A stretch of DNA of 32,724 nucleotides from an uncultured Clostridia bacterium (lineage in GTDB: Bacteria > Bacillota > Clostridia > Oscillospirales > Acutalibacteraceae), in NCBI GenBank assembly GCA_946186665.1, contig CAMHOE010000025.1, positions 1-32,724 on the forward strand. The letters run 5' to 3'. The notes beneath the pieces were generated by a model. That model was given only the letters and a program-made list of their open reading frames with translations, had not been told where the DNA came from and ran no database searches. Both the position numbers and the translations under genes were made by a program. This document shows, piece by piece, positions 5,008 to 25,090 of the stretch (positions are counted from its first letter, which is position 1; the number at the start of each line of letters is the position of its first letter).

Positions 5008-5039
5008 GGTTTTAGTTAGATTTTATAGGAGATATGAAA

Positions 5040-9475: not shown

Positions 9476-9476
9476 A

Positions 9477-11207
9477 TCAAACAGCCTCCTTTCCGTAGCT
9501 TTCCAGTGCCGACTGGGTTGCCCACAGACGTGCATAAGTTCCGTTTTTCTTTAGCAGCTCCGTATGTGTTCCGTTTTCTGCTACCTTGCCGCCATCCATT
9601 ACATAAACCTTATCCGCGTCCACCACATTCGCCAGACGGTGAGAGATCATGATAACAGTCTTTTTCTTTGTGAGTCTGTGTATCTGCGATAGTATCGCTT
9701 CTTCGCTTTCAATGTCGATGTTACTTGTCGCTTCATCAAAGATATAGACAGGCGAATCGTGCAGGATAGCACGGGCAAGGGCTAACCTCTGCTTCTGACC
9801 GCCGGAAAGATTTCCGGCATTTTCCAAAAGCTCGGTGTCAAGTCCGTTTTCTTCTTTTAGAAACTCGGAAAGCTGACAGTCATCAAGCACCTGCCACAGC
9901 TTTTTATCATCTGCATTTTTGTCGGCAAGGAGAAGATTTTCTCTCACAGTACCCTTAAAGAACACACTTCCAAAGCCGATATATGTAACAGCTTTCATCA
10001 GGCTTTGCTCGGAGATGGTGTTCATCTCTTTTCCGTCAATTGTCAGGCTGCCGCTGCCGACGGTATTTCTGCCCATTATCAGCGAAGCAACAGTAGATTT
10101 GCCGCTGCCGGATTCTCCGACAATTCCGACAAAGCCGTTTTTCGGAATTGTAATGCTGACATTATGCAAAATCTCTCTGTCCTCCGTGTAGGAGAAACAG
10201 GCATCTTTCAGGGCAATTTCGCCGCCGCTGACGTTTTCTGTTTTTTCGTCAGGCTCTGCTTCACTGAGAAATTTGAAGATCTTATCGCTTGCCGCCATAC
10301 CGTTCATGGCAACATGGAAATAGCTGCCGAGCCGCCGCATCGGCAGGAAAAAATCAGCGGAAAGCAGTATCATAAATATACAATTCGCAAGTCCGATATT
10401 CCCATCAACAAAGGATTTTGTTGCCAGCAAAATACCCAGAGCCGCACCGCCGTAAGCCACAAAATCCATAATGGTAACGGAGTTGAGCTGCATCGTCAGC
10501 ACCGCCATTGTCACCTTGCGGAAATGCTCGGATTCACGGTTCATTTCTTCGTTTTTGTAACCGTCAGCCTGATAGGTTTTGAGGGTCGTCATACCCTGCA
10601 AATTCTCAAGGAAGGTGCTGCCGAGCTTCGTATACTGTCCCCAGTATTTGGAGAGTATCTTTTTTGCGATCTTCTGTACCATCATAATAGCACCGGGGAT
10701 AAGCGGAACGCAGATCAGCAGTATCGCTGCCACAAGCCAGCTTCCACCGAAACCAAAGAGAAAAAACAGGGCTATCGGTGCAATAAAGGCATAGAAAAAC
10801 TGGGGCATATACTGTCCGAAATAACTTTCAAGCTGATCGACACCCTCTACACTTTCCTGCACCAGTTCGGCAGTTGTAGAATGTTCACGGTAGCTTGTAC
10901 CCAGCCGCAGCAGCTTGCTGTAGATTTTTTCACGCATTACTCTTTTGACGGTGCGTGAGGCAAAATAGCTCATACGTGTAGCATATTTTGTGGTAAAAAA
11001 TCGTGCGAAAATCGTACAGCCAATTATGATAAGCGGAACAATCAGGTCACTTAGCGTCCACACCTTTTCATACAGTCTTTGCACCGATACGGCAATGGTA
11101 ACGATCATCACCGCATTCAGACACAATTCTAAAAATTGCAGAATGATATTCCCTATAATATATTTGCGGCTTTCAGGACACATCTGCATCAGTCGTTTGT
11201 CAAACAT
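9477..11207 (-). CDS. CydD-like ABC transporter, fused permease and ATPase
   Basis: This 576-aa protein is the partner half-transporter: six membrane spans in residues 15-310, then an ATPase domain with GESGSGKST, LSGGQKQR, VYIFDEATSN and the H-loop ISHR. Both partners have complete ATPase motifs, so two working ATP sites are expected. Substrate is not visible in the sequence: thiols, a heme derivative or a siderophore are all possible. The ATG at 11207 has an AAGGAAC site upstream and a good minus-strand promoter at 11248-11275. It heads a four-gene coupled unit that ends at 7052. Confidence 0.85.
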   Translation of the reverse strand: MFDKRLMQMCPESRKYIIGNIILQFLELCLNAVMIVTIAVSVQRLYEKVWTLSDLIVPLIIIGCTIFARFFTTKYATRMSYFASRTVKRVMREKIYSKLLRLGTSYREHSTTAELVQESVEGVDQLESYFGQYMPQFFYAFIAPIALFFLFGFGGSWLVAAILLICVPLIPGAIMMVQKIAKKILSKYWGQYTKLGSTFLENLQGMTTLKTYQADGYKNEEMNRESEHFRKVTMAVLTMQLNSVTIMDFVAYGGAALGILLATKSFVDGNIGLANCIFMILLSADFFLPMRRLGSYFHVAMNGMAASDKIFKFLSEAEPDEKTENVSGGEIALKDACFSYTEDREILHNVSITIPKNGFVGIVGESGSGKSTVASLIMGRNTVGSGSLTIDGKEMNTISEQSLMKAVTYIGFGSVFFKGTVRENLLLADKNADDKKLWQVLDDCQLSEFLKEENGLDTELLENAGNLSGGQKQRLALARAILHDSPVYIFDEATSNIDIESEEAILSQIHRLTKKKTVIMISHRLANVVDADKVYVMDGGKVAENGTHTELLKKNGTYARLWATQSALESYGKEAV

Positions 11208-11381: not shown

Positions 11382-12176
11382 CTATACCGGTATTACAAAG
11401 GGCTTTCCGTCTATTTGCCGGATATTGAGATCAACTCCGTAAACCGTTTTGACAAGCTCCGTTGTGATGACTTCCTCCGGTCTGCCCTGTGCAATGGTCT
11501 TTCCGTCCTTCATGGCAATGATCTCATCACTGTAGTATAGTGACTGGTTGATGTCGTGAAGCACCATTATAATGGTAATGCCAAACTCTTTATTCAGGCG
11601 ACGTATCAATCGGAGAATGTCAAGCTGATAACGCACATCAAGATAGGTTGTCGGTTCATCTAATAGAAGAATTTTAGTGTTCTGTGCCAGTGCCACAGCG
11701 ATCCATACACGCTGCTTCTGACCGCCTGACAGTCTTGAGACTTCTCTGTGGCGGTATTTTGTGATATCGGTGACCTCCATCGCCCATTCAATGCACCGTT
11801 CATCTTCTTCAGTAGAAGCTGACATCATTTTTTTGTGTGGTGTTCTGCCGAAGGACACCAACTGTTCTACGGTGATATCACCGCAAACGGTGTTGTACTG
11901 ATGAACGATAGCTGCCTTCTGAGCAAATTCTTTCAGATCAAGGTTATTGATGTTCCTGCTGCGAAGAAATATCTGACCGCTTTTGGGATAGAGATTTTTT
12001 GTCATCAGTGAGAACAGGGTCGATTTGCCGCAGCCGTTCGCACCGATCACAGTAGTTATCTTACCCTCTGTTATCTTGAGGGAAATGTCACGCAGCACCT
12101 CGTTCTTGCCGTATGCAAAGGTGACACCTCGTACCTCCATTGCCGGTCGTTTTTTCTTTGGCTGTATGTCAGACAT
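11382..12176 (-). CDS. Heme/siderophore ABC importer ATPase (FecE/HtsC-like)
   Basis: The 264-aa protein is a FepC/FecE-class ATPase: Walker A GANGCGKST, Q-loop VHQYN, signature LSGGQKQR, Walker B ILLLDEPTTYLD and H-loop VLHDINQ. It would energise the permease encoded by the gene it overlaps by eight bases (12169-12176). With the lipoprotein at 13220 it makes a complete iron-complex importer; NEAT proteins in the same operon point to heme as substrate. Length is normal. It is the last gene of the importer operon. Confidence 0.9.
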   Translation of the reverse strand: MSDIQPKKKRPAMEVRGVTFAYGKNEVLRDISLKITEGKITTVIGANGCGKSTLFSLMTKNLYPKSGQIFLRSRNINNLDLKEFAQKAAIVHQYNTVCGDITVEQLVSFGRTPHKKMMSASTEEDERCIEWAMEVTDITKYRHREVSRLSGGQKQRVWIAVALAQNTKILLLDEPTTYLDVRYQLDILRLIRRLNKEFGITIIMVLHDINQSLYYSDEIIAMKDGKTIAQGRPEEVITTELVKTVYGVDLNIRQIDGKPFVIPV

Positions 12177-13203
12177 ATTTTTTCGACCTCCTCAAAAGAA
12201 GAATAAAGAACGGACCTCCTGCAATATTCATAATAATAGAAGCAGACACCTCATATGGTGCGGCAATCGTTCTTCCAATTGTATCAGCACAGAGAAACAC
12301 CAACGCGCCGAACAGCGCTGAAAAGGGTATTAGCTTTTTATGGTCGCTGCCGACCAGTATTCTTCCGATATGGGGAACGATAAGTCCGATAAAGCCGATA
12401 ACACCGGCAACGGCTGTAGATACGCTGACAAGCGCCGCCGCAATTACAGAGATCACGATGCGGAGTCGGCTGACATTCACGCCGAGTCCTCTCGCGGTCT
12501 TATCCTCAAGAGACAGAATATTGCATCCGCCTGTCACGAACAGCGAAGCCGCCAGACCGATACCGGCATACGGAAGAAGCATATAAACATCGTCCCATGT
12601 TTTCATGGTAATATTGCCATTGACGATGGCAGCCACGCCCTGCATATTGCCGCCGTTCATAGAATTGAATGCAGACGATAGTCCCGAAAAAACGGCACTG
12701 ACCGCCACACCTACAAGAATAATACGCAGCGGCGACAGACCGCCCTTCCATGAAAGGGTATACACCAGCACAAACGCCAGTATGCCGCCGCAGCACGCCG
12801 CTATCGGCATCAGAAAGAACATAGACGGCAGAAAAGCTGTTATCAATACCGCCGCCAGACTTGCACCGCCTGATATACCGATAATGCCGGGGTCAGCAAG
12901 GGGGTTTTTAAGCACCGCCTGAAACAATGTTCCGGATACGGCAATAGACGCTCCTGCTACCATCGAAATAATAATTCTCGGAAAACGCAGGTCAATGACA
13001 GTGGCGGCATTGTCCGACAGATTTCCGCTGAACAAGCCGCCGAACAGTTCACCGGCACTGACCTTCAGCGAACCTATATTCATCGCCGCAAAGCATAGTA
13101 TCAAAAGGCACACAGCCGTGATAACAAACGAGATAACCGTTCGTAAGGTTTTAAATCGCTGTCTTTTCTCGTCCTCATTGACAGCTTTTGTTTTTTCACT
13201 CAT
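12169..13203 (-). CDS. FecCD-family permease of the heme importer
   Basis: This 344-aa protein has the eight to ten membrane spans of BtuC/FecCD permeases, with family motifs LRFPRIIISMVAGASIA, NPLADPGIIGISGGA and GFIGLIVPHIGR. The last includes the coupling region that contacts the ATPase. The N-terminal 20 residues are charged and cytoplasmic. A single permease gene implies a homodimer. It starts 17 bp after the lipoprotein stop, with AAAAGGAG as ribosome binding site. Confidence 0.92.
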   Translation of the reverse strand: MSEKTKAVNEDEKRQRFKTLRTVISFVITAVCLLILCFAAMNIGSLKVSAGELFGGLFSGNLSDNAATVIDLRFPRIIISMVAGASIAVSGTLFQAVLKNPLADPGIIGISGGASLAAVLITAFLPSMFFLMPIAACCGGILAFVLVYTLSWKGGLSPLRIILVGVAVSAVFSGLSSAFNSMNGGNMQGVAAIVNGNITMKTWDDVYMLLPYAGIGLAASLFVTGGCNILSLEDKTARGLGVNVSRLRIVISVIAAALVSVSTAVAGVIGFIGLIVPHIGRILVGSDHKKLIPFSALFGALVFLCADTIGRTIAAPYEVSASIIMNIAGGPFFILLLRRSKKYV

Positions 13204-13219
13204 GTTATTCTCGCTCCTT

Positions 13220-14194
13220 TTAGTCAGGATATAGTAACGGCTGGATCTCGTTCAGAGCGTCAGGATAGTTGAATTTGGCACTCATACCGAAGTTATCGTA
13301 GGAGAGGTCATAGACTCTGCCGTTTTTTACGGCTTCAAAGTGCTTCCATATATCGTTCTCGGCAAACTCTTTATTGAACATTTCCTTCACGCTGTCGGGA
13401 AGTGCATGAGCACACCGCAGGATAATATCCGGCTTTTTGGTTTTCATATCCTCTGTGTTGACTGTCAGGAATTCTTCGCCGGTTCCGGCATAGACATTCT
13501 CGCCGCCTGCCATTTCTACAAGACTTCCGACATAGCTGTTTTCAGTGGCAATAATATAGCTGCCCGGAAGACCCATGAGTATCATGACCTTAGGATGCGG
13601 TTTGCCCTCATTTTTTGACTTGTATGTATCGTAAAAATCTGTAAATTCCTTTACCGCAGCTTTGGCTTGCTCCTGTTTGCCAAACATATCTCCCAACTCG
13701 ATTATGGAGCGGTAAAGCCCCTGTACGCTTCGGGTATTCAGAAATGCCCAGTCTGCGCCAATGGCATCATACTTCGGCTGTAAGTCGCTTTGGAGAGATA
13801 CGGGACTCAATATCCAGTCGGGCTTCAAAGAAGCGACTATTTCAAGATCGGGACTCATTGCCAGTCCTACGACCGGAACATCCTTGTACCTCTCTGGTAT
13901 GTTGGAAATATTGCTGCTGCATACACCGACAAGCTCTATTTCCAGCTTGTCGCAAACATCGGCAATAGCAGGAGATGTGGCGATAATTCTCGGATCTCTG
14001 CCGAGTTTTTTTATCTTATCGACTGCTAAATCCACAGCTGCTTTTTCCTCTGGGTCAATATTTCCAAGCGCATCCACACCGCCGTAAGCTTCCGTGCTTT
14101 CACTATTTTCCGAACATCCGCTCAGTATGCCACAGAACAGAGACAACAGCATTGTCAGCAAAAGAAGAACTGCTTTCTGCCTTGTTTTAGTCAT
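13220..14194 (-). CDS. IsdE/HtsA-like heme-binding lipoprotein
   Basis: The 324-aa protein has a lipoprotein signal with lipobox LSGC (Cys27), so it is anchored outside the membrane. The rest is a FecB/PBP-type binding protein. Met113 in GLAMSPDLE and His263 in RCAHALPDS align with the axial heme ligands described for S. aureus IsdE (Met78, His229) and streptococcal HtsA. The segment NTEDMKTKKPDIIL before the His is also family-like. This is the best single indication that the importer carries heme. ATG 14194 overlaps the previous stop and has a GAGGACGG site; longer starts lie well inside the upstream gene. Confidence 0.9.
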   Translation of the reverse strand: MTKTRQKAVLLLLTMLLSLFCGILSGCSENSESTEAYGGVDALGNIDPEEKAAVDLAVDKIKKLGRDPRIIATSPAIADVCDKLEIELVGVCSSNISNIPERYKDVPVVGLAMSPDLEIVASLKPDWILSPVSLQSDLQPKYDAIGADWAFLNTRSVQGLYRSIIELGDMFGKQEQAKAAVKEFTDFYDTYKSKNEGKPHPKVMILMGLPGSYIIATENSYVGSLVEMAGGENVYAGTGEEFLTVNTEDMKTKKPDIILRCAHALPDSVKEMFNKEFAENDIWKHFEAVKNGRVYDLSYDNFGMSAKFNYPDALNEIQPLLYPD

Positions 14195-14888
14195 TATCAT
14201 CACCGTCCTCGTCATATTCTTCCATATCATCCTCTTTGTTCAGCTTTACCTTTGCTTTGGTTTTTACAATAAAGACGATTACGCCTGTTACGGCAGCACA
14301 AATAACAAATGTGACAATCACCCATAATATGGTGCTGTTCGGTTTTCCGCTGCTGTCTGAGACTTCCCCGACCTCCTTTTCTGTTGACAATATCAGTCCT
14401 CGTGTGTTGTCGGGAGCATATTCTTCACTGTGTGAGGTCTGCGGAGTCTGAACTTCCGACTTCGATACAGACTCTGCTTCCGGCAAAGGCATCATGGATA
14501 TCTCTGAACTTTCCTCAGCGGCTGACTCCGGCTTGCTGCTTTCCGGTGCAGACGACTCCTGTATACGGCTTTCCTCTTGTAAGGGTTCGTTGCGAGAGGC
14601 TTCTTCCGTTGATGTTTCTTCCGTTGAAGCGTATTCTGTACTGCTCTGCTGAATTGAGCCTTCGACGATCTGAGACGTTTCTTCAAAACTGTCCTCAACA
14701 CTTATCTCAACCGGAGCTTCGGCTGCACTTTCCACACTGATTTCGACAGACTCCTGTGAAGGCTCTGTCTGCGTATTGACAGAGGGTTCAGTGACCATAA
14801 GAGTGTTCATATCTGTAGTGTTGCCCTCTGTGAAGTCACTGGCATACATATACCATATCACCCAGCGTCCCATCGGCTCAACATACAT
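14187..14888 (-). CDS. C-terminal part of a split Shp-like NEAT protein (stalk and membrane anchor)
   Basis: Reading from 14888, the first 25 residues (YVEPMGRWVIWYMYASDF) look like the last strands of a NEAT domain, not a protein start. About 150 residues rich in Ser, Glu and Thr follow as a stalk, then one membrane span at about 186-208 (ILWVIVTFVICAAVTGVIVF), a Lys-rich stop-transfer stretch and an acidic tail. There is no signal peptide and no ribosome binding site at 14888. The frame overlaps the preceding NEAT gene by 31 bp in another phase. Together the two make the layout of streptococcal Shp (signal, NEAT, stalk, membrane span). Probably the downstream half of a frameshifted gene; the anchor may not reach the membrane correctly. 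Confidence 0.7.
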   Translation of the reverse strand: MYVEPMGRWVIWYMYASDFTEGNTTDMNTLMVTEPSVNTQTEPSQESVEISVESAAEAPVEISVEDSFEETSQIVEGSIQQSSTEYASTEETSTEEASRNEPLQEESRIQESSAPESSKPESAAEESSEISMMPLPEAESVSKSEVQTPQTSHSEEYAPDNTRGLILSTEKEVGEVSDSSGKPNSTILWVIVTFVICAAVTGVIVFIVKTKAKVKLNKEDDMEEYDEDGDDND

Positions 14889-15271
14889 TCGTTCTCGGTG
14901 TAGCCGGTCAGGAAGTAAGACAATGTGCCGAGATTCTCGGAAATTACCTTTGTTACCTTTCGAAGCTGTCCGAGATATCCTTCCATGCCGAGATAAGTCA
15001 TGGACTGCATTTCAATTTCAATATGCGAATTGCCGCTGCTGTCCGTTACAAGCGTTGCAGGCGATTTCATTGAACCGTTGCCCATTGAATACTCGTCATT
15101 GTCAAACTGCATAAGGCTGATATTGATCTTATATTTGCTCTGTACCGTATAAGACGCCGCCGAAACAGTCAGACTGCTGCTTACAGGAACAAATGAGGGC
15201 AATGCGGCCGTTCCTGTGACGGCAAGGGCTAATGCTGCCGCAAATATACATTTCATTGTTTTGCTTTTCAT
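14858..15271 (-). CDS. N-terminal part of a split Shp-like NEAT protein (signal peptide and partial NEAT domain)
   Basis: The 137-aa product has a signal peptide (residues 1-39, ending TVSAA) and the first half of a NEAT domain: SMGN at 62-65, SPATLVTD and GYLGQLRKVTKVISEN. Compared with the intact paralogue at 15287, about 45 residues are missing after ISEN, and the frame is lost just before the motif YVEPMG, so it ends with unrelated residues (SRWDAG). ATG 15271 is chosen because GGGGAG lies nine bases upstream. A secreted but incomplete heme-binding domain is expected. A sequencing error could explain the frameshift, but hardly the missing segment. Confidence 0.7.
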   Translation of the reverse strand: MKSKTMKCIFAAALALAVTGTAALPSFVPVSSSLTVSAASYTVQSKYKINISLMQFDNDEYSMGNGSMKSPATLVTDSSGNSHIEIEMQSMTYLGMEGYLGQLRKVTKVISENLGTLSYFLTGYTENECMLSRWDAG

Positions 15272-15286
15272 CAAAAGAAACTCCCC

Positions 15287-16522: not shown

Positions 16523-19500
16523 TTATTCTTCTACATTTACAACAAAGTATTTTTTCTCAACAACACCGCTGTCGTCCTTTACTTTTACGCAAACCAAATA
16601 CTGAGTTGCCTTTGCCGGTTTAATAGAAACATCTGTATTTGTGGAGAAATACTGCCTTCTCACCCATTTTGTACCGGCTAATTTCCTGTAGTAAACGGCA
16701 TAGGTATGATCACCGCTGCCGTCCTCTGACGATACGTTTATCGTCATTCTATCACCAAGCTTGATAGTCTGTTCGGGGATAGTGGAAGTATTTTTCAATG
16801 CGCCCTCATCATCTGTTATGGTGTCTTTAACATCTACGGTAAAGTACTTCTTTACAACTGTACCGTCAGCGTCCTTTGCCTTTACACATATAATATACTG
16901 CGTTGCTTTGGCAGGCTTGATATGTACAGCCGTATTGTCTTTATAGTCCTGAGCTACTACCCAATTTGTGCCGTTCATTTTCCTGTACATTACGGCATAA
17001 GTGTAGTCACCTGCTCCGCCTTCTGCGCTCATATTCACTGTCAGTCTTGTACCGAGTGTGATGGTATCGCTGTCGATTGAAGAGGTGTTGGTCAGGGCAT
17101 CAGGCTCAACCTCTGCTTCAACCAGTCCTTCAATAGCCGTCTGTACAGCAGTTACCGCATTGTCTACACTTTCTTGTGTCTTGCTCTCGTCAGCCAGTAC
17201 AGCCTTGGCACTTTCTACGGCAGTTGTCAGAGCGGCATAGCTTTCCTCTGTATATTTGCCATCAGTGTTGCTGATTGCTTCGGCTTCGGCAATCTTTGTT
17301 TCAAGAGCAGAAGTATCAACTTCAACAGGTTTCCATTCGTAGTCGTTCCATTCGCTTGTCTGATAATTTGTAAGATATACGCTGTGAGTCATTACTCCGT
17401 TATCGCCGAGAGACGGGATTCCGGTGTTGTAGCTGAACGAAAGCTTGTGGTCACTTGTTATATCAGCAATGTCCATAGTAAACTCATACGCTGTACCTGT
17501 AGAATCCTTGCCGTACTCTGTTTTTACACCTTCAACACCGTCCATAGCCAGTTTCTGCATATCTATTTTAGAAGGCTTGTAAAGCAGGCTGACTTTCATT
17601 TTGCCGTCGCTGTCAACGGTGAGCTTGATATTCGGGTCAAACTGACGGGAAAGTGCAAACTCATTTTCACTGTCAGTTCCGTAGGTGCTTTCTGTTATTG
17701 CCTTAACGGAGAGGTTGTATGTACCTTCGGCAAGGACAGGTTTATTTTCCAGTACAAGTCCGTCAATAGCTGCCTGCAAACCGTTTATAATCAAATTTGC
17801 GGATTGTTCGGAAACATCAGTTGAAGAAGATAATACATAGTTAGCAATGAAAAGGAACTGCTGTAAACCGGCAAAGCTATCTTCTGTATATTTTCCGTCA
17901 TCATTATTGATAGCCTGTGCTTGTGCCATCAGAGTATTGATAGTTTCCATTTGCTCGTCTGTTGCTTTTTTCTCCAATGCCTGACGGGCAGCTTTCAATT
18001 CTTCTACAGAATTGTCAACAAGTTTTTGAGATGATGTATCATCATCATAAACCTGCTGTGCTTTGCTAAGTACATCCTTTAGATTTTGAACAGAAGCACT
18101 TGTATAAGCAGATATGGCATTGCTTTCAATAAGTGCTTTAGTTGCACCTATCTGAAGTTCAAGATCTGATTTGTCTATTTTCAGTTCTCCGACATATTCG
18201 ATATTTTCCCAATCAATATCCATTGCTGCATCAATGAATTCGCCCGGTAATGTTTTTTCGTCTATTTTGAATCTCGCTATTCTTGTAATCAGGCTTTCAG
18301 CACTATATTGATTGGCGATTGTACCTTCTGTGCTATCTTGATCAGTAAGTATCGGGAGTTTATCTCCAAAATAATCGACATTGGTACGGGAAAGGAACTC
18401 AAGTTCACTCTGAAATCCCCATACGGAGTAAGTTGAGGCGTATGCACTAATACTGCCAACATAATATCCTGTATCAGAATAATTATCCACAGGAACTATT
18501 TTCAAGGTATAATTTCCGTTCTGAGCTGTTATTTCTACAGTATCTCCAAAATACTCATTAAAGAATGGTATCTCTTTATCGGTCAACAGACCATCTTGTG
18601 TATATCTTCCAGAGCCACTGTCATAGGTCGGCGTATTCCAACTTGTTTCATAGAACTTAACCTTTGCCTTATATACGCCATCAGCAAGAATCTTATCTTT
18701 TTCAACAAGTCCGCTCTTTGCCTTAACCAGTATAGCGTAATCTCTCATAGCATAAATTGGAAAATACTTGTCACGGTTATTTGCATTTTCGACAGAGGTC
18801 ACAGAGGATTGAAGTTTATTAACACTCTCTTGTGTGTATTTATCATTATTTGCAATAATGGACTTGCATTCTTCAAGCATTGGTTCAACTTTTTCTGTCC
18901 ATTCAGAGCATCTGAGATTGTTCCAATCAATAACCAAATTACAATCCTGTTCGGAATCGCCCATAGCATCAACTTTTACTCTGCAAACAATTTCTGTGGG
19001 ATAAACTGGCTTATTTCCTGTACCTAAATCCCAAAGCGGGATGGTTGTTTCTTCAAGAATGGAATACACATCTGATAAGTCTGCCGACGCATAAACATAA
19101 TCGAGTTTCTTATTGATTGTGTCCTGTTTATGACCGTTCTCGTCATAGTACCATAAATTTTGAAGATGACCTATCAACGCTCCTGCTTCACCAAAATCAA
19201 GAGTGATAGCATTAAAACCGAGTATCAAATAAGCGTTTCCGTCTTTTATCTGTATTTTTGCTGTATGCTTTACAGCACCGTTAGCCATTGACATTGTATT
19301 TTCATCTGCTGCATAGCGTGAATAGATATAAACCGGAACTGTATAAATATCATCTTCATACTTATCTCCACCATTATTATCGGTTAAACGCAAATCTGTG
19401 GGATTTGATGCAGTAGGACGAGTTTCGGGTTTTGACTGTAAAGATGCTGTTGTTTCTTCAAGACTGAGTACCTGAACAGCCGCATCTGCCTGTATTGAAA

Positions 19501-19585
19501 GTAAACCTGTCGGAATTGACGCACCGCCGATTACCGTAACTGCAAGGGCAATGGCACATATACGCCGTAGCAGTTTGCTCTTCAT
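16523..19585 (-). CDS. Large secreted NEAT/FIVAR surface protein (heme capture)
   Basis: This 1020-aa protein begins with a signal peptide (1-36). A clear NEAT domain spans about 81-225, with MSMAN at 98-102, KHTAKIQIKDG and a late strand with KVDAMG (Met208) before VIDW. A divergent NEAT-like region follows at about 300-466, ending DIDWENI, and a third at about 615-755 (EGTYNLSVKAI, then QFDPNIKLTVDSDGKM). FIVAR-type helical repeats (GKYTEESYAAL, SVDNAV patterns) lie at about 231-294, 471-540, 541-612 and 756-822. Two Ig-like repeats, as in the 389-aa neighbour, close the protein (829-920, 929-1020). There is no LPxTG motif or membrane anchor. By analogy with streptococcal Shr it would capture heme at the surface. 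The ribosome binding site is AAGGAG. It heads the heme operon. Confidence 0.88.
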   Translation of the reverse strand: MKSKLLRRICAIALAVTVIGGASIPTGLLSIQADAAVQVLSLEETTASLQSKPETRPTASNPTDLRLTDNNGGDKYEDDIYTVPVYIYSRYAADENTMSMANGAVKHTAKIQIKDGNAYLILGFNAITLDFGEAGALIGHLQNLWYYDENGHKQDTINKKLDYVYASADLSDVYSILEETTIPLWDLGTGNKPVYPTEIVCRVKVDAMGDSEQDCNLVIDWNNLRCSEWTEKVEPMLEECKSIIANNDKYTQESVNKLQSSVTSVENANNRDKYFPIYAMRDYAILVKAKSGLVEKDKILADGVYKAKVKFYETSWNTPTYDSGSGRYTQDGLLTDKEIPFFNEYFGDTVEITAQNGNYTLKIVPVDNYSDTGYYVGSISAYASTYSVWGFQSELEFLSRTNVDYFGDKLPILTDQDSTEGTIANQYSAESLITRIARFKIDEKTLPGEFIDAAMDIDWENIEYVGELKIDKSDLELQIGATKALIESNAISAYTSASVQNLKDVLSKAQQVYDDDTSSQKLVDNSVEELKAARQALEKKATDEQMETINTLMAQAQAINNDDGKYTEDSFAGLQQFLFIANYVLSSSTDVSEQSANLIINGLQAAIDGLVLENKPVLAEGTYNLSVKAITESTYGTDSENEFALSRQFDPNIKLTVDSDGKMKVSLLYKPSKIDMQKLAMDGVEGVKTEYGKDSTGTAYEFTMDIADITSDHKLSFSYNTGIPSLGDNGVMTHSVYLTNYQTSEWNDYEWKPVEVDTSALETKIAEAEAISNTDGKYTEESYAALTTAVESAKAVLADESKTQESVDNAVTAVQTAIEGLVEAEVEPDALTNTSSIDSDTITLGTRLTVNMSAEGGAGDYTYAVMYRKMNGTNWVVAQDYKDNTAVHIKPAKATQYIICVKAKDADGTVVKKYFTVDVKDTITDDEGALKNTSTIPEQTIKLGDRMTINVSSEDGSGDHTYAVYYRKLAGTKWVRRQYFSTNTDVSIKPAKATQYLVCVKVKDDSGVVEKKYFVVNVEE

Positions 19586-19641
19586 AAATAATCACTCCTT
19601 GATTTCCTTTTGAGTAAAATGTTGTTTTTTGAGGTTTCAAA

Positions 19642-19678
19642 TCAATAGTGTAAACATCGCTTTTGAGGCGGGCATATG
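19642..19678 (-). pseudogene. Remnant of the regulator gene's 3' end, copy A (12-13 codons)
   Basis: Read leftwards the sequence encodes HMPASKAMFTLLI and a stop, against HMPTSRAMFTLLI at the end of the intact regulator (21207). It has lost all upstream sequence. It lies between the NEAT operon promoter and its first gene, so it is now part of that operon's leader. Confidence 0.7.
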
Positions 19679-19691
19679 ACTGATAAAATCA

Positions 19692-19721
19692 AGTATAAAT
19701 TAACTGATAAAAAATTTGTAA
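19692..19721 (-). promoter_or_regulatory. Possible promoter of the NEAT operon with flanking direct repeats
   Basis: On the minus strand TTACAA (19721-19716) and TATACT (19697-19692) are 18 bp apart. ACTGATAAAA occurs at 19679-19688 and 19703-19712, on either side of the -10 box, and could bind a repressor. The -35 hexamer is shared, read in the other direction, with the brnT promoter, so the two divergent promoters overlap. Confidence 0.45.
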
Positions 19722-19744
19722 AACGTATTACTTAATGTTATACT
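19716..19744 (+). promoter_or_regulatory. brnT promoter
   Basis: TTGTAA (19716-19721) and TATACT (19739-19744) are 17 bp apart. Transcription should start about seven bases later, at or next to the ATG at 19751, so the message may be leaderless. Confidence 0.65.
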
Positions 19745-19750
19745 TGAAGT

Positions 19751-20040
19751 ATGAAAACCGTGATAGAAGGTCTTCCTGTTGAACGGGACGACCGCAAGAA
19801 TGAAATCAACAAGAAGAAGCATGGGATCAGCTTTGAAACTGCTGCGTTGGTATTCGCCGATAAGGAGCGGATCGAATACTACGACAGATTACACAGCGAT
19901 GAGGAAGACAGGTACATCGTGCTTGCATGGTGGAGAAAATCCTCTATGTTGTATATACTGATCGTGAGGACGCAACAAGGCTGATTTCTGCAAGACTCGC
20001 AACCCCCACTGAAAGGAGAGTGTACTATGGCAACTATTAA
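19751..20040 (+). pseudogene. brnT: BrnT-type toxin gene with one frameshift
   Basis: The first part matches BrnT ribonuclease toxins: RKNEINKKKHGISFETAALVF and then DEEDRYIVL. About position 19925 one base, probably a G, is missing. The family sequence continues in another frame: MVEKILYVVYTDRED, then RLISARLATPTERRVYY, ending at TAA 20038. As read, the product ends after unrelated residues at 19984 and lacks the conserved C-terminal ISAR motif. Intact BrnT cleaves RNA and is neutralised by BrnA. The complete ancestral frame overlaps brnA by 14 bases, the normal arrangement. The start has no ribosome binding site and sits at the expected transcription start. Confidence 0.82.
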
Positions 20041-20338
20041 AACCACAATCTACGACGGTCAGCAGCCGACCGAGGCTCAAAAAGCCGAAATTGAGGCTGC
20101 ATCCAAGCAACCTATCTCGTTTGACGATGCACCGGAGCTTACGCCGGAACAGTACGCAGAAATGGCGGAACTCGCAAGAGCAAAACGTGAAGATGCAGTG
20201 AAACCTGTCATCTCGCTGCGTATTTCTCCCGATACGCTGGAAAAAGCGAAAGCTACGGGAAAGGGCTACACCGGTTTTCTCAGTCGATTGCTCGACAATG
20301 CGATCAACGATCCGTCCATGGTTCTCAAAAGCCTGTGA
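20027..20338 (+). CDS. brnA: BrnA-family antitoxin
   Basis: The 103-aa protein has the BrnA layout: a disordered, acidic N-terminal half that would wrap the toxin, and a C-terminal DNA-binding part with SLRISPDTLEKAKATGKGY and FLSRLLDNAI. BrnA usually binds its own promoter as a dimer together with BrnT. AAAGGAG at 20013-20019, inside the toxin gene, is a strong ribosome binding site. The gene is intact although its toxin partner is frameshifted. It ends just before the terminator at 20351. Confidence 0.87.
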   Translation: MATIKTTIYDGQQPTEAQKAEIEAASKQPISFDDAPELTPEQYAEMAELARAKREDAVKPVISLRISPDTLEKAKATGKGYTGFLSRLLDNAINDPSMVLKSL

Positions 20339-20350
20339 CATCTCAGCCTC

Positions 20351-20370
20351 GCCCCACGGCGGGGCTTTTT
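20351..20370 (+). terminator. Terminator of brnTA
   Basis: GCCCC (20351-20355) pairs with GGGGC (20361-20365) and five T follow. It forms the left end of the repeat that continues into copy B of the regulator 3' end. Confidence 0.8.
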
Positions 20371-20375
20371 GCTGC

Positions 20376-20496
20376 CTAAATCAGTAGTGTAAACATCGCC
20401 TTTGAGGTGGGCATATGCTGAACCCCAACGGTGCAGTCCATCTGCAAACAAACCGTGCCGTGCAAAACCTGCCCCATGCTGTCGCCGATATTGACA
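20376..20496 (-). pseudogene. Remnant of the regulator gene's 3' end, copy B (38-39 codons)
   Basis: Read leftwards the frame encodes NIGDSMGQVLHGTVCLQMDC, then TVGVQHMPTSKAMFTLLI and a stop. The intact regulator has the same 38 residues with three conservative changes (Ile/Val, Val/Leu, Arg/Lys). Upstream codons are replaced by the promoter region of the next toxin-antitoxin pair. Frame and residues are kept while silent bases differ, so the copy came from a once-functional gene. Confidence 0.85.
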
Positions 20497-20528
20497 CATA
20501 CAATTATTGTCAAATTCTATCATTTATA

Positions 20529-20557
20529 TTGCAATTTGCTTCATTTTGATATATAAT
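20529..20557 (+). promoter_or_regulatory. Promoter of the RelB/RelE-like operon
   Basis: TTGCAA (20529-20534) and TATAAT (20552-20557) are 17 bp apart. Upstream, TTGACA (20491-20496) and TGTCAA (20509-20514) form an inverted repeat with a 12-bp spacer that could be the antitoxin operator. Confidence 0.65.
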
Positions 20558-20582
20558 AGAAGCAGAAAGGAGATGATTTTCC

Positions 20583-20882
20583 ATGACAACAATTAGCCTG
20601 CGTCTTGATGACGATTTAAAGCGCGACCTCGAACAGATGTGCAGCGAAATGGGTATGAGCCTTACGACTTTCTTCACCATTTACGCTAAACGTGCCCTCC
20701 GTGACCGCAAGATCCCCTTTGAGATCACCGCCCCTGCTCCCGCCATTGACCCAGATAAACTTGATTGGGATCGCATCGGTAAGCTGCTCGACGAAGCCGA
20801 GCGTATCAACAAGGATGCTGAGGGCGTACCTCTCGAAGATTTCTTGAAAGAAATGGAGATGCTTGTTAATGAAGCGGTATAA
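20583..20882 (+). CDS. RelB/DinJ-family antitoxin
   Basis: The 99-aa protein opens with a ribbon-helix-helix DNA-binding segment (TTISLRLDDDLKRDLEQMC, then GMSLTTFFTIYAKRAL), typical of RelB/DinJ antitoxins. The rest is an acidic helical tail (LLDEAERINKD) that would cover the toxin. AAAGGAG at 20566-20572 is a good ribosome binding site. The toxin gene overlaps its last codons by 14 bases. Family assignment rests on the N-terminal motif and on the toxin next door. Confidence 0.87.
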   Translation: MTTISLRLDDDLKRDLEQMCSEMGMSLTTFFTIYAKRALRDRKIPFEITAPAPAIDPDKLDWDRIGKLLDEAERINKDAEGVPLEDFLKEMEMLVNEAV

Positions 20883-21171
20883 AGTTATAGTCCTTCCTGC
20901 GGCAAAAGATGATGAAAGGGCGATACTGAAATACCTCTTAGGCATCTCTGGTTATACCGCAAGGTACTACCATAAGCTTTTCGCCGAAAAGTTTCGTTCT
21001 CTCGCAGAATTTCCGCTGCGCTGCCCGCCGGCAAAAAACGAGAAGTATGCCAAATTGGGCTATCACTATCTTGTGATAAACTACTATCTTGCTTTCTTCA
21101 CCGTTGAGGGTGATACCGTGAAAATTCAGCGAATTTTTGACGGCCGCAGCGATTACACCGCACAAATCTGA
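20869..21171 (+). CDS. RelE/ParE-superfamily toxin
   Basis: The 100-aa protein has the RelE/ParE pattern: a first strand YKVIVLPAAKDDERAILKYL, a helix with YYHKLFAEKFRSLAEFP, then the strands LGYHYLVINYYLAFF and VKIQRIFDGRSDY. The end signature (RIFDGR.DY) is common in ParE/YafQ-like proteins. Whether it cuts mRNA on the ribosome or poisons gyrase cannot be told from sequence. ATG 20869 is chosen over TTG 20863; it overlaps the antitoxin gene and has GGAGA nine bases upstream. Unlike brnT, this gene is intact. Confidence 0.85.
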   Translation: MKRYKVIVLPAAKDDERAILKYLLGISGYTARYYHKLFAEKFRSLAEFPLRCPPAKNEKYAKLGYHYLVINYYLAFFTVEGDTVKIQRIFDGRSDYTAQI

Positions 21172-21178
21172 TACGAAA

Positions 21179-21201
21179 GCCTCGCTACGGCGGGGCTTTT
21201 T
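21179..21201 (+). terminator. Terminator of the RelB/RelE-like operon
   Basis: GCCTCG (21179-21184) pairs with CGGGGC (21191-21196), and five T follow. It is the counterpart of the brnTA terminator in the repeat and also abuts the 3' end of the regulator gene. Confidence 0.75.
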
Positions 21202-21206
21202 GCTGC

Positions 21207-22040
21207 CTAAATCAGTAGTGTAAACATAGCCCTTGAAGTGGGCATATGCTGAACACCAACGGTGCAGTCCATCTGCACACAAACCGTGCCGTGCAAAATT
21301 TGCCCCATGCTGTCACCGATATTGACAAAGCTGATGGCATCTGCCGGAATGGTGTAACATTCGCCGTCCCATGCCGCATTGGCAAACTGCCCTGCAATAT
21401 AGTATTTCAGGTTCGTGACATGACCGGACAGGAACTGATCGTTGATCTTTGATTTTGCGGACATGGGCGTGACACGGAGCCTGATCTCTCCTACACCGTC
21501 CTTGACTATCAGCGTACACGGATACTCAAAGCCCTCGTTTGCCATAGAAAGAATGTTGCTGCTGTTCTGCACATTCTCACGATAAAACAAAAACGGAAGC
21601 TGTGTGCGGCTGTCCTTCATCAGACGGCAAAGCTCACCGCCGCTAAAGGTCTTTTTGTTCCGAAGCTCATATTTGATACGGCAGCGTTCAACGCTCTTGC
21701 GGACGATCTCTATATATTCGTCAGTGCAGTCCCTCGCCCAAGCATAAGTATCATGCTGCGCGTTTTCCATGCTCATGCCTTCGTAAAGCAAATGACTCAG
21801 ACTGACATCGGCTCGTTCCTGTATGCGTTTTGCTTCCGTCAGACCCTTGTCTGTGAGCTTCGGGTGACGGGGTTCGCTGCGGTCAACAAGACCTGCACCC
21901 TCAAGGACTGCGATAACTCTGCTGATCTTGTACTTTTCCGTTTTCAAAGCACGGGCGATTCCTGTTACCGTGCGGTCCTTCGGGTCGTTATTCAGCAAAC
22001 CTAAAAGCACCTGCATATCCAAGGCTTCAAGCTGTTCCAT
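21207..22040 (-). CDS. Winged-helix, DtxR-like regulator with a NEAT-like C-terminal domain
   Basis: This 277-aa protein has three parts. Residues 5-75 are a winged helix of MarR/DtxR type (TVTGIARALKTEKYKISRVI, then GLVDRSEPRHPKLTDKG). Residues 76-115 resemble the DtxR/MntR dimerisation and metal-binding helices (LSHLLYEGMSMENAQHD, then CTDEY). Residues 150-262 look like a NEAT domain: SMANEGFEYPCTLIVKDG fits the SMGN...PATLIVDADG segment of the NEAT proteins nearby, and FLSGHVTNLKYYI fits GYLGQLRKVTKVI. VCVQMD near residue 257 sits where the NEAT proteins have VYVPVME or VKVDAMG. There is no signal peptide, so this domain would act in the cytoplasm, presumably sensing heme. AGAGGAG is the ribosome binding site. 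The gene once lay directly upstream of the NEAT operon. The NEAT-like reading is my inference. Confidence 0.75.
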   Translation of the reverse strand: MEQLEALDMQVLLGLLNNDPKDRTVTGIARALKTEKYKISRVIAVLEGAGLVDRSEPRHPKLTDKGLTEAKRIQERADVSLSHLLYEGMSMENAQHDTYAWARDCTDEYIEIVRKSVERCRIKYELRNKKTFSGGELCRLMKDSRTQLPFLFYRENVQNSSNILSMANEGFEYPCTLIVKDGVGEIRLRVTPMSAKSKINDQFLSGHVTNLKYYIAGQFANAAWDGECYTIPADAISFVNIGDSMGQILHGTVCVQMDCTVGVQHMPTSRAMFTLLI

Positions 22041-22174: not shown

Positions 22175-22203
22175 ATAATAACACAAGAAATACCTTTTGT
22201 CAA
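22175..22203 (-). promoter_or_regulatory. Promoter of the NEAT-like regulator
   Basis: On the minus strand a perfect TTGACA (22203-22198) and TATTAT (22180-22175) are 17 bp apart. The palindrome at 22211-22231 lies just upstream of the -35 box. Confidence 0.75.
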
Positions 22204-22210
22204 GATTTAG

Positions 22211-22231
22211 TTTGTAGCAATTTGCTACAAA
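22211..22231. promoter_or_regulatory. Operator-like palindrome 1
   Basis: TTTGTAGCA (22211-22219) and TGCTACAAA (22223-22231) are perfect 9-bp arms around a 3-bp centre. It touches the regulator promoter. A 21-bp dyad of this size suits a winged-helix dimer. Confidence 0.6.
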
Positions 22232-22360: not shown

Positions 22361-22381
22361 TTTGAAGCAAATTGCTACAAA
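22361..22381. promoter_or_regulatory. Operator-like palindrome 2
   Basis: TTTGAAGCA (22361-22369) and TGCTACAAA (22373-22381) repeat palindrome 1 with one changed base in the left arm and the same 3-bp spacing. The two sites are 150 bp apart centre to centre, which would permit looping or control of both divergent promoters. Confidence 0.6.
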
Positions 22382-22508: not shown

Positions 22509-22537
22509 TTGACATTTGTCGATAACAGTTATATAAT
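22509..22537 (+). promoter_or_regulatory. Consensus promoter of the P-type ATPase operon
   Basis: TTGACA (22509-22514) and TATAAT (22532-22537) are both perfect and 17 bp apart. Such a strong promoter normally needs a repressor. Confidence 0.88.
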
Positions 22538-22567
22538 TTTAACTGTGATTAGTTATGTCTAACAAAT
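22525..22567 (+). promoter_or_regulatory. Overlapping operator dyads, one DtxR-like
   Basis: ACAGTTA (22525-22531) and TAACTGT (22540-22546) are inverted around the -10 box. Just downstream TTAGTTATGTCTAACAAAT (22549-22567) agrees with much of the DtxR-family iron box TTAGGNTAGNCTAACCTAA. Both would block RNA polymerase, so metal-dependent repression is likely. Confidence 0.5.
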
Positions 22568-22592: not shown

Positions 22593-22673
22593 ATGAAACA
22601 CCATAAATTCTGGGCGATCGCTGCCCTTGTATGTATGTTGATGACAATTATCACAGGTTATGAGAAAAAATAA
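22593..22673 (+). CDS. Tiny membrane peptide, 26 aa
   Basis: ATG 22593 opens 26 codons: MKHHKFWAIAALVCMLMTII followed by TGYEKK. It is a single hydrophobic span between a His/Lys-rich start and a charged end, like the small DUF6219-type membrane peptides of Clostridia; this family link is from memory and uncertain. The ribosome binding site is weak (GGA about 18 bases upstream). It is the first frame after the consensus promoter and ends two bases before the AGGAGG of the next gene, which suggests a real, coupled cistron. Confidence 0.5.
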   Translation: MKHHKFWAIAALVCMLMTIITGYEKK

Positions 22674-22689
22674 TAGGAGGTTATTAACC

Positions 22690-22986
22690 ATGAAACCAAT
22701 CAGCAAAACACTTCTGGCATTTTTAGGAGGAGTAGCATTCGGAACAGCAGGTATCAAGCTGCTTTCAAGCAAGGATGCCAAAAAGCTTTACACACAATGC
22801 ACAGCGGCTACTCTCAGAGCGAAGGACAGTGTCGTAAAAACCGCCACAACGATTCAGGAAAATGCAGAGGATATTCTGGCAGAAGCAAAGCAGATCAATG
22901 CAGAACGTGAAGCGGAAGAAGAAGACACTATCCCGGAAGAAGCTGAGGAAGACTCCTCTGAAGAGGATGACAATAGCGAGGACTAA
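22690..22986 (+). CDS. DUF6110-like membrane-associated protein
   Basis: The 98-aa protein has one Gly-rich hydrophobic segment (residues 7-25, LLAFLGGVAFGTAGIKLL), a helical middle (KDAKKLYTQCTAATLRAKDS) and a very acidic tail with over 20 Glu/Asp. It resembles DUF6110 proteins that sit before heavy-metal P-type ATPases in Clostridia. The acidic tail could gather metal ions for the pump or act as a scaffold; this is inference. AGGAGG at 22675-22680 fixes the start at 22690. Only 28 bp separate it from the ATPase gene. Confidence 0.75.
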   Translation: MKPISKTLLAFLGGVAFGTAGIKLLSSKDAKKLYTQCTAATLRAKDSVVKTATTIQENAEDILAEAKQINAEREAEEEDTIPEEAEEDSSEEDDNSED

Positions 22987-23014: not shown

Positions 23015-25090
23015 ATGAAATATAAGATCAAACATGAACTCAAAGGTCGTATACGGCTGCATTTTATTCAAAAGCTTAGCCTGACAGAGCTTGATAAGCT
23101 TTATTGCAGTTTGTCTGAAAGGAAATTTATCAGACGATGTAAGGTGTATGCTCCCACTAATGACCTAATGCTAGAATACACCTGCGACAGAAAAAAAGTT
23201 CTGAAGCTTTTAACAGATTTGCGTACAGATGATATTACTGTTTCAGAAAGCTCTCTTGCAGCAGTAACAGCTTCAAGAGAACTGAACGCCGAATATAAAA
23301 GTAAGCTTCTTCGGAAAGCTGCAGCTCATGCAGTAAACAAAATAGTACTGCCGCTTAAGCTTCGTATTATCATTTTAGCAGCAAAAACAGTACGCTTTGT
23401 ATGGAAGGCTCTCAGGTGTCTTGCTAAAGGAAGATTAGAGGTCCCTGTTTTAGATGCAACGGCAATTTTTGTTTCTATGCTCAGACGGGACTATAATACA
23501 GCAGGCTCTGTAATGTTCTTACTCGATATCGGAGAAATACTTGAGGACTGGACGCACAAAAAATCAGTCAGTGATCTGGCAGGCAGTATGTCGCTGAACG
23601 TGGGTAAGGTATGGCTGAAAACAGGAGAGCAGTCCGTTCTTATCGATGCCTCTGATGTTAAAGAAGGCAATGAGATCATGATACGCACCGGAAGTATGAT
23701 CCCCTTTGACGGTGTCGTTACATCAGGTGACGCTATGGTAAATCAGGCGTCCCTGACGGGAGAAAGCACACCCGTTCATAAAAATGCTGAAAGCACGGTG
23801 TATGCAGGGACAGTTATTGAAGAAGGTGAGCTGACTGTCTGTGTAAAGAATGCTGTAGGATCTACCAGATACGAAAAGATCGTATCTATGATCGAGGATA
23901 CAGAAAAGCTGAAGTCCGAAGTAGAAAGCAAAGCGGAGCATCTTGCGGACAGGCTGGTGCCGTATACCTTCTTCGGCACTCTGCTTGTCTGGCTGATCAC
24001 AAGAAATATAACAAAGGCATTATCTGTTCTGATGGTGGATTTTTCCTGTGCATTAAAGCTTGCAATGCCTGTTACGGTATTGTCGGCTATAAGGGAAGCC
24101 AACAATTATGGAATCACCATCAAGGGCGGAAAGTTTATAGAGAAGCTGGCGCTCGCCAATACGATAGTATTTGATAAAACCGGAACACTGACAAAGGCAG
24201 TTCCTACGGTCAGGAAGGTCGTTTCATTCTGTGATCTGAGCGATGATGAGCTGTTGAGGATTGCAGCGTGTCTGGAAGAGCATTTCCCCCATTCTATTGC
24301 AAATGCAGTTGTCAAGGCTGCAAAGGATAAAAAACTTATTCATGAAGAAATGCACACGAATGTCGAGTATGTTGTTGCGCATGGCATAAGATCCACCATT
24401 GACGGCAAGACTGTACTTATAGGCAGCTATCACTTCATATTTGAGGATATGGGCGCTGCTGTTCCTCTGGGTGAGGAAAAGAAGCTGCTCTCCATTTCAA
24501 TGGAGTATTCCAGACTATATATGGCAATAGACGGCTATCTTGCGGCGGTGATCTGCATCGAGGATCCTTTGCGTGAGGAAGCCTCAGAAATCGTAAATGA
24601 GCTAAGGGGCTGCGGATTTACAAACATCGTGATGATGACAGGCGACAGCAAGCACACAGCAAGCTCAATAGCTGCAAAAGTCGGGGTTGATTCCTTTTAT
24701 GCGGAGACATTACCAGAGGATAAAGCAGGATTTATACTGAATGAAAAAGCAAAGGGCAATACAGTCGTGATGGTCGGAGACGGCATCAACGATTCTCCTG
24801 CCCTATCGTCTGCCGATGTGGGTATTGCAATATCTGACGGTGCAGCTATTGCAAGAGAGATAGCCGACATTACAATTTCGGAAGACGATCTGCATGGGAT
24901 CATTACCATCAGAAAACTGAGCACAGCTATGATGAAGCGTATAAATCAGAATTACCGCTCCATCCTTGCTATAAATGGTGGTCTGATTGCTCTTGGAGTA
25001 ACAGGAATTGCACCACCCACGCTCACCGCTACGATACATAACGCTTCAACTATAGGCATCGGTCTGATGAGTACAAAAAAGCTTCTGTAA
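23015..25090 (+). CDS. P1B-type heavy-metal-translocating ATPase
   Basis: This 691-aa protein has an HMA-like N-terminal domain without CxxC (KYKIKHELKGRIRLHF), a TGES actuator loop (248-251), the phosphorylation motif DKTGT (Asp387) and the hinge MVGDGINDSPAL. The usual membrane CPx motif is replaced by SCALKLAMP (344-352), and the last span has HNASTIGI. These features mark an atypical P1B group, often linked to Mn or Fe export, not Cu or Cd. The ion cannot be named from sequence. With a DtxR-like box at the promoter, an iron or heme-stress efflux role (as for FrvA/PfeT) is plausible. The ribosome binding site is weak, so it may rely on translation of the upstream gene. Confidence 0.88.
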   Translation: MKYKIKHELKGRIRLHFIQKLSLTELDKLYCSLSERKFIRRCKVYAPTNDLMLEYTCDRKKVLKLLTDLRTDDITVSESSLAAVTASRELNAEYKSKLLRKAAAHAVNKIVLPLKLRIIILAAKTVRFVWKALRCLAKGRLEVPVLDATAIFVSMLRRDYNTAGSVMFLLDIGEILEDWTHKKSVSDLAGSMSLNVGKVWLKTGEQSVLIDASDVKEGNEIMIRTGSMIPFDGVVTSGDAMVNQASLTGESTPVHKNAESTVYAGTVIEEGELTVCVKNAVGSTRYEKIVSMIEDTEKLKSEVESKAEHLADRLVPYTFFGTLLVWLITRNITKALSVLMVDFSCALKLAMPVTVLSAIREANNYGITIKGGKFIEKLALANTIVFDKTGTLTKAVPTVRKVVSFCDLSDDELLRIAACLEEHFPHSIANAVVKAAKDKKLIHEEMHTNVEYVVAHGIRSTIDGKTVLIGSYHFIFEDMGAAVPLGEEKKLLSISMEYSRLYMAIDGYLAAVICIEDPLREEASEIVNELRGCGFTNIVMMTGDSKHTASSIAAKVGVDSFYAETLPEDKAGFILNEKAKGNTVVMVGDGINDSPALSSADVGIAISDGAAIAREIADITISEDDLHGIITIRKLSTAMMKRINQNYRSILAINGGLIALGVTGIAPPTLTATIHNASTIGIGLMSTKKLL

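Follow-up and report, generated by a model that had tools for sequence, protein, structure and literature searches.

An MntR-like regulator with a fused NEAT domain beside heme-uptake genes in Clostridia, a candidate heme-responsive transcription factor

The window, the whole 32,724-nucleotide stretch of DNA analysed here from an uncultured Clostridia bacterium, carries a gene whose product joins an MntR-type DNA-binding and dimerisation unit to a NEAT domain. With a probability of about 0.72, this protein is a cytosolic one-component regulator of heme uptake that has lost the MntR metal site and in which the fused NEAT domain has taken over sensing. At the level of sequence and structural modelling, the regulator has two domains and a NEAT fold, lacks the MntR metal ligands, is linked to uptake genes and is accompanied by a conserved paired operator. 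The first-pass annotation had read the locus as a NEAT-domain regulator next to a NEAT uptake operon, and this was largely right. The protein is a one-component and probably heme-responsive regulator, and no example of its sensing domain in such a role turned up in the openly licensed literature. Chances are about even that it represents a new class of heme-responsive transcription factor, one combining a surface carrier domain placed in the cytosol, a bis-Met switch, paired phased operators, a NEAT/Shp regulon and a second box for iron. The features of the window are as follows.

21207-22040, minus strand: MntR-NEAT regulator, 277 aa, ATG start (open reading frame and profile matches)
21654-22040, minus strand: regulator residues 1-129, winged helix and DtxR/MntR-type dimerisation helices without metal ligands
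21210-21653, minus strand: regulator residues 130-277, NEAT domain
21543-21545, minus strand: codon of Met166 (SMAN), proposed heme ligand, in 26 of 28 aligned relatives
21243-21245, minus strand: codon of Met266 (HMP), proposed heme ligand, in 26 of 28, absent in the same two as Met166
22211-22231, no strand: proximal putative operator TTTGTAGCAATTTGCTACAAA
22361-22381, no strand: distal putative operator TTTGAAGCAAATTGCTACAAA, 150 bp from the proximal one
22175-22203, minus strand: predicted sigma-A promoter of the regulator, TTGACA-17-TATTAT, with the proximal operator centred at -53
22509-22537, plus strand: predicted sigma-A promoter, TTGACA-17-TATAAT, towards the divergent DUF6110 and P-ATPase genes
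22548-22563, plus strand: GTTAGN6CTAAC-like box ATTAGTTATGTCTAAC
22660-22986, plus strand: DUF6110 protein (Pfam E 1.8e-33)
23015-25090, plus strand: heavy-metal P1B-type ATPase
20583-21171, plus strand: RelB antitoxin and ParE toxin genes, between the regulator and the uptake operon
20356-20496, minus strand: copy of the regulator 3' end, 94% identical to 21187-21327
16523-19585, minus strand: secreted NEAT/FIVAR protein, 1020 aa
15287-16456, minus strand: secreted NEAT-like protein, 389 aa
14187-15274, minus strand: Shp-like gene, in two frames in this assembly
11382-14230, minus strand: heme/iron-type ABC importer (binding protein, FecCD permease, ATPase)
7817-11207, minus strand: two ABC transporters with fused membrane domains, recurrent in relatives' loci
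7052-7820, minus strand: YgbA_NO and DUF454 genes, recurrent in relatives' loci

A DNA-binding unit joined to a NEAT domain

The 277-residue open reading frame at 21207-22040 on the minus strand is as originally described. Residues 7-59 match MarR_2 (PF12802) in Pfam with 34.6 bits, above the cut-off of 27. For a profile of 14 N-terminal parts, the best PDB match is the MntR chain 2h09 (E 8.9e-14), with more MntR chains following, and this fit covers a longer stretch of the N-terminal half than MarR_2 does; Fe_dep_repr_C is matched in 4 of 15 family members. Because MntR chains head the PDB matches, the N-terminal half is assigned to the MntR/DtxR type of winged helix with dimerisation helices, which bears out the earlier recognition of DtxR-like helices behind the winged helix. 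The metal ligands of MntR, which we take to be H77, E99, E102 and H103, were mapped through the 2h09 alignment onto 29 relatives and are found in 0/28, 0/29, 1/29 and 0/29, respectively. Metal sensing through the MntR site is unlikely, since its ligands are gone in the relatives.

Divergent regulators in four loci have an adjoining second gene (L080 888-1751, L085 10335-11129, L086 8506-9375 and L079 5477-6346). This gene has a DtxR dimerisation domain (Fe_dep_repr_C) in the first three, and in L085 it also has a degenerate NEAT-like tail (E 1.1e-4). These may be tandem regulator pairs.

The C-terminal 148 residues are a NEAT domain by profile comparison and modelled fold. The segments that the regulator was said to share with its secreted neighbours are real: SMAN, P.TL.VKDG and GHVTNLKYY correspond to SMANGAVKHTAKIQIKDG and GHLQNLWYY of the protein encoded at 16523-19585 on the minus strand. 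A match to the NEAT family model was also expected, and this holds for the family, with 14 of 15 members, the window's regulator included, matched at E ≤ 1 (best 1.2e-6); on its own, the regulator (E 0.092, 13.6 bits) stays under the curated cut-off of 32.8 for PF05031. Profiles of the domain reach much further. All eight PDB matches of a 15-row profile at E ≤ 1 are NEAT-type chains, and all nine matches of a 28-row profile up to E 10 are Isd, Hbp2 or Shr chains, headed by IsdX1 (E 3.7e-8); Shr we take to be a NEAT-bearing protein. In hhalign, a profile of 14 secreted NEAT domains from these loci is matched with 97.9% probability (E 3.5e-13) over columns 10-86. These columns, like the alignments to solved NEAT domains, cover mainly the first half of the domain.

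A structure model of residues 130-277 (pLDDT 76, pTM 0.73) was built on a 7-row alignment and is not independent of the NEAT assignment, because 5 of the rows are secreted NEAT/Shp pieces of the window and L032. In a Foldseek search with this model, all eight matches at E ≤ 0.001 are NEAT entries, as are 49 of the best 50 of 964 matches (up to E 10), the other being rank 49. The best entry, 3sz6, aligns over 143 columns with E 3.0e-5, probability 1.00 and an rmsd of 5.6 Å; the two best entries span 4.4-5.6 Å, with TM scores by query length of up to 0.57. A full-length model from a 3-row alignment reached a pLDDT of 43.9 and was set aside. The predicted fold is thus the NEAT beta-sandwich proposed at the outset and not an unrelated one, and scans of Pfam, NCBIfam and the PDB brought up no rival family for the C-terminal part.

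The candidate heme ligands are two methionines. In the 28-row alignment Ser165 is invariant, Met166 and Met266 are each kept in 26 rows, and L037 and L040 lack both; for independent rows such a coincidence of losses would have a chance of 1 in 378, but these rows are not independent. Few positions of the domain are as well conserved as the SM and MP motifs. In a divergent alignment, three secreted NEAT domains, two from the window and one from L032, have Met in the same two columns, and the placement of Met266 rests on this alignment and on the model. The axial Tyr of NEAT domains belongs to a YxxxY motif; the corresponding region of the regulator lacks this Tyr pair and has Met in 26 of 28 rows. 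In Shp, the ligands of the heme iron are Met66 and Met153, according to the available part of PMC2266757. The conservation and joint loss of the two methionines, the columns shared with secreted NEAT domains and the Shp precedent together lead to the reasoned proposal that heme would be held between Met166 and Met266 in a bis-Met manner, by analogy with Shp.

Predicted operators and linkage to uptake genes

The palindrome noted earlier at 22211-22231 is real and has a second counterpart at 22361-22381. Both follow the consensus TTTGTWGCA-N3/4-TGCWACAAA, and none arose in 100 shuffles. When the window and the stretches of 32 relatives were scanned with spacers of 3, 4 or 5 bp, 7, 4, 10, 18 and 36 sites were found at 0-4 mismatches, compared with 0, 0.25, 0.75, 4 and 30.5 in Markov-sampled control sequence (4 replicates). 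The sites are paired beside the regulator gene. Counted from the last codon of that gene, their positions in most loci are +11 to +55 and +83 to +142; in the window, L032 and L037 the pair is upstream of the regulator. Pair spacings are 67, 68, 77-79, 89, 131, 142 and 150 bp. A phasing of 10.5 bp is seen across six spacing classes (Monte Carlo p 0.003), and the 150-bp spacing of the window is an out-of-phase outlier.

By one scan criterion, no site is present at L035, L038, L040, L045, L046, L077, L080, L081, L085 and L086. L045, L046, L077 and L080 are near contig ends, and the looser stretch scan gives L035 a pair with 3 and 4 mismatches. L109 (6602-7207, G520:C10) has a second, broken regulator copy with an adjoining operator pair 78 bp apart.

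Genome-wide, exact sites with a 4-bp spacer occur in 6 of 21 regulator genomes, each adjoining the regulator, and in 0 of 20 genomes that lack a full regulator; this count does not cover the sites in the window, whose spacer is 3 bp. Because the consensus was derived from these loci, the informative part of the result is the absence of exact sites elsewhere. With up to 2 mismatches, regulator genomes have 29 sites (6 for a reversed control) and regulator-free genomes 13 (5 for the control). One regulator-free genome, G300, has a site with 1 mismatch, which is not at a NEAT gene.

Base 7 of the half-site changes with the recognition helix across 17 loci, a set that leaves out L032, L048, L075, L079, L109 and L110. 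With Tyr or Trp at residue 37 and Arg at residue 41, base 7 is G in 28/28 and 20/20 cases, although some second sites in these two classes were picked with a pattern that requires G. The remaining classes were found despite that pattern: base 7 is T in 10/12 cases with Val37/Arg41, A in 3/4 with Gln37/Arg41 and C in 4/4 with Ser37/His41. The C may go with His41 rather than Ser37, because L079, with Ser and Arg, has G at its single site.

Candidate sites away from the regulator also point to heme genes. The only other site in the window's genome at ≤2 mismatches (G000:C5:28367) is accompanied by a 3-mismatch partner at a distance of 150 bp and precedes an unlinked gene for a secreted protein with a NEAT match (E 8.1e-5). 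This promoter region is visibly similar to the window's and is therefore a paralogue rather than a site of independent origin; at 3 mismatches the pattern does no better than the control in this genome (9 versus 7 sites in all). In the other regulator genomes, 2 of 10 off-locus sites at ≤2 mismatches, one each in G878 and G1027, precede orthologous genes for NEAT cell-wall proteins. NEAT is matched by Pfam in G878 (E 1.9e-4); in G1027 it is matched by our own profile only (4.5e-12), with no Pfam match at 0.1. Both sites have weak partners 79 bp away, with 5 mismatches each; among the 11 control sites listed, however, a partner with as many mismatches lies within 160 bp of 3 sites, at other distances. 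None of the 13 sites in regulator-free genomes has a NEAT gene in its fetched stretch. These results suggest that the TTTGTWGCA pairs are the regulator's predicted operator beside heme-uptake genes. The control of uptake genes that had been surmised from gene order is backed by the conserved pair, by covariation with the recognition helix and by the off-locus sites before NEAT genes.

The uptake genes themselves recur with the regulator. In the window, the 1020-residue secreted protein matches NEAT at E 3.4e-7 (31.1 bits, just below the Pfam cut-off), and the 389-residue protein gives a weak match (Pfam E 0.0033). The Shp-like gene (Pfam Shp, E 7.8e-7) consists of frames 14858-15274 and 14187-14888, which reflects either a frameshift or faulty assembly. 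In 24 of 28 loci the fetched stretch contains homologues of the NEAT, binding-protein, permease, ATPase or paired ABC genes of the window. L045, L077 and L080, all near contig ends, have none, and L038 has only a 60-residue ATPase fragment beside the regulator. Among 100 family genomes, Shp occurs in exactly the 3 with a full regulator (G000, G007 and G047), and NEAT in these three, in G002 and weakly in G022; L083 also contains an Shp gene. A link between Met-less regulators and a lack of NEAT and Shp was dropped, since G047, the source of L040, has both gene types on other contigs. An operator was looked for near the Shp gene of G047 and was not found.

Relatives of the regulator occur in the class Clostridia. 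Of the 300 genomes in the family sample, 12 have a full relative, with one more split over two contigs and one fragment. In the order sample (394 genomes) 13 have relatives, 10 full and 3 divergent, next to the same fragment; in the class sample (391 genomes, E ≤ 1e-17) 10 do (7 full, 2 divergent, 1 fragment); and in the phylum sample (299 genomes) there are 2, the genome of the window and G312, a member of the same order. These samples overlap. A scan of viral_contigs gave 25 pattern matches and 0 confirmed relatives.

Because DUF6110 and P1B ATPase genes diverge from the regulator, ferrosome control was considered (PMC12574912, in the part available); it was set aside because the constant partner in relatives is the heme operon. 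L074 and L076 nevertheless have homologues of both genes no more than 10 kb away, and L043 and L075 have one of the two. Two papers on partners of PacL-type P-ATPases appear to cover DUF6110.

Proposed mechanism and alternatives

In 13 of 17 loci, a set that leaves out the near-identical L075, the centre of the proximal site falls between -53 and -55; L036, L037 (-76), L083 and L084 have it elsewhere. In a further set with a restricted search range, 3 of 6 promoters show the same position, the others being L048, L111 and L120. Taken together, 16 of 23 promoters have the site about 54 bp before the predicted start. The predicted promoters match the consensus at 9-12 of 12 positions.

In the proposed mechanism, heme reaching the cytosol would bind between the two methionines and alter the way in which the regulator dimer engages its operators. 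With sites in helical phase and, in the commonest arrangement, about 78 bp apart, two dimers may form a bridge through a short loop, and the proximal dimer near -54, just upstream of the -35 element, would act on RNA polymerase. A separate box of the GTTAGN6CTAAC type may add an iron response, which would make a two-input switch. As the window's pair is upstream of the regulator itself, its target would be the promoter of the regulator and, possibly, the uptake genes that follow on the same strand.

Heme binding is a proposal, and so is the sign of control, for which there is a close competitor. The same protein and operator could serve a heme-loaded repressor that shuts off uptake homeostatically, perhaps by looping or by covering the alpha-CTD region; we would put this somewhat below even odds. 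Classic DtxR and MntR members are metal-loaded repressors of uptake, and promoters that approach the consensus, some at 12 of 12 positions, likewise favour repression. The proximal site is nevertheless clear of the -35 element in 16 of 23 promoters, and because the sites leave the core promoter free and contact with RNA polymerase is favoured, there is a slight lean to activation. As for the ligand, heme is suggested by the type of domain, by gene content and by the targets. A NEAT-type domain might instead sense something else, such as another porphyrin, a corrinoid, the apo or iron state, or a protein partner, and the Met in place of the axial Tyr as well as the two relatives without both methionines would agree with this. 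Such a ligand is unlikely, given that the operon and the off-locus targets consist of NEAT/Shp heme genes and that the secreted neighbours have Met in the same two alignment columns.

The SH3-like domain at the C-terminus of DtxR proteins and the similarity of the regulator to MntR raise the thought that its NEAT domain is a comparable structural remnant, with sensing by metal or not at all. The loss of the MntR metal ligands and the SM and MP motifs, which are well kept and lost together, make this very improbable. A final alternative assigns the TTTGTWGCA pairs to another regulator, with the NEAT protein as a bystander or as the factor that binds GTTAGN6CTAAC. Its main attraction is the distribution of the latter box: AGTTAGN6CTAACT (≤1 mismatch) has 7-21 sites, above control, in 20 of 21 regulator genomes, and exceeds 6 sites in 1 of 20 regulator-free genomes. 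That one genome, G021, has 12 sites without the regulator, while the window's genome has the regulator without an excess of boxes (3 versus 2 in the control). Exact TTTGTWGCA sites, moreover, were found only beside the regulator gene in the 41 genomes searched, and base 7 follows its recognition helix in 17 loci. Assignment of the pairs to another factor is consequently improbable, and GTTAGN6CTAAC was placed second, behind the TTTGTWGCA pairs, as a candidate for the NEAT regulator's own site.

The same two exceptions, G021 and the window's genome, lead us to read the GTTAG box as the site of a separate factor. The box travels with the regulator, as its enrichment in regulator genomes indicates, and is probably bound by an iron-responsive protein whose site tends to be co-inherited with the regulator system. 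It lies within 120 bp after the proximal site in 9 of 17 loci. GTTAGN6CTAAC palindromes are far above chance in many loci, for example at L041 9065, 9233 and 10601. At L034 9350-9363 and L076 9232-9245, the predicted NEAT-operon promoter is followed after about 20-40 nt by a short hairpin with a T-run, which precedes a GTTAG-type box. Such a hairpin was seen by eye in several more loci; it is possibly an attenuator or a pause site.

Known systems and minor features

The regulator has the fold, the SMxN lip segment and the VKDG strand in common with the NEAT proteins IsdX1, Hbp2 and IsdX2 (PF05031). It differs from them in the fusion to a DNA-binding unit and in having Met for the axial Tyr, and it has no room for a signal sequence because the winged helix begins at the N-terminus. 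With MntR and DtxR it shares the winged helix and the dimerisation helices; unlike them, it is without metal ligands and has NEAT in place of the SH3-like tail. The two conserved methionines, column-shared with secreted NEAT neighbours, recall Shp (PF11545), a streptococcal bis-Met heme protein, but Shp is a surface heme carrier, whereas the regulator domain would be cytosolic and regulatory.

Bacterial heme sensors include PefR, HsmR, HrtR, HatR, FhtR, Irr, HbrL and HssRS, none with NEAT in the available parts of PMC12670364 and PMC11442138, where NEAT domains appear as surface heme carriers. The MarR proteins PefR and HsmR and the TetR proteins HrtR, HatR and FhtR resemble the regulator in being one-component and heme-responsive; as described in those portions, they control heme efflux, storage or detoxification with no mention of NEAT, whereas the present regulator is linked to uptake (PMC12670364, PMC11442138). 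HasI/HasS/HasR may share with it a substrate-linked control of heme uptake but, according to the same excerpts, works through sigma and anti-sigma factors and an outer-membrane receptor (PMC12670364, PMC11442138). Searches of the CC-licensed part of PMC brought up no NEAT-bearing regulator. If the proposal is correct, the regulator would represent, in Gram-positive bacteria, the equivalent of heme-induced heme uptake, with a link to iron through the second box. A regulator that reads heme with the kind of domain used by the uptake system would show a transport domain recruited for sensing, and suggests a new way of bacterial heme sensing. It would also open a way into the control of heme in gut Clostridia, with an operator and ligand pair that is directly testable.

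The end of the regulator gene looks like an insertion hotspot for toxin-antitoxin modules. Displaced copies of its 3' end lie at 21187-21327, 20356-20496 and 19639-19678, and the interval between them (19639-21327) contains the RelB/ParE module and a BrnA-type antitoxin gene at 20027-20338 (Pfam E 3.5e-10). In L032 (8680-9700), a related RelB/ParE pair is flanked by the locus's own regulator tail on one side and, on the other, by a copy that shares about 94% identity with that of the window, and the arrangement is also marked at L033 141-670. Elsewhere in the window, 5034-5663 is a gene of the chloramphenicol acetyltransferase family (Pfam E 1.9e-16).
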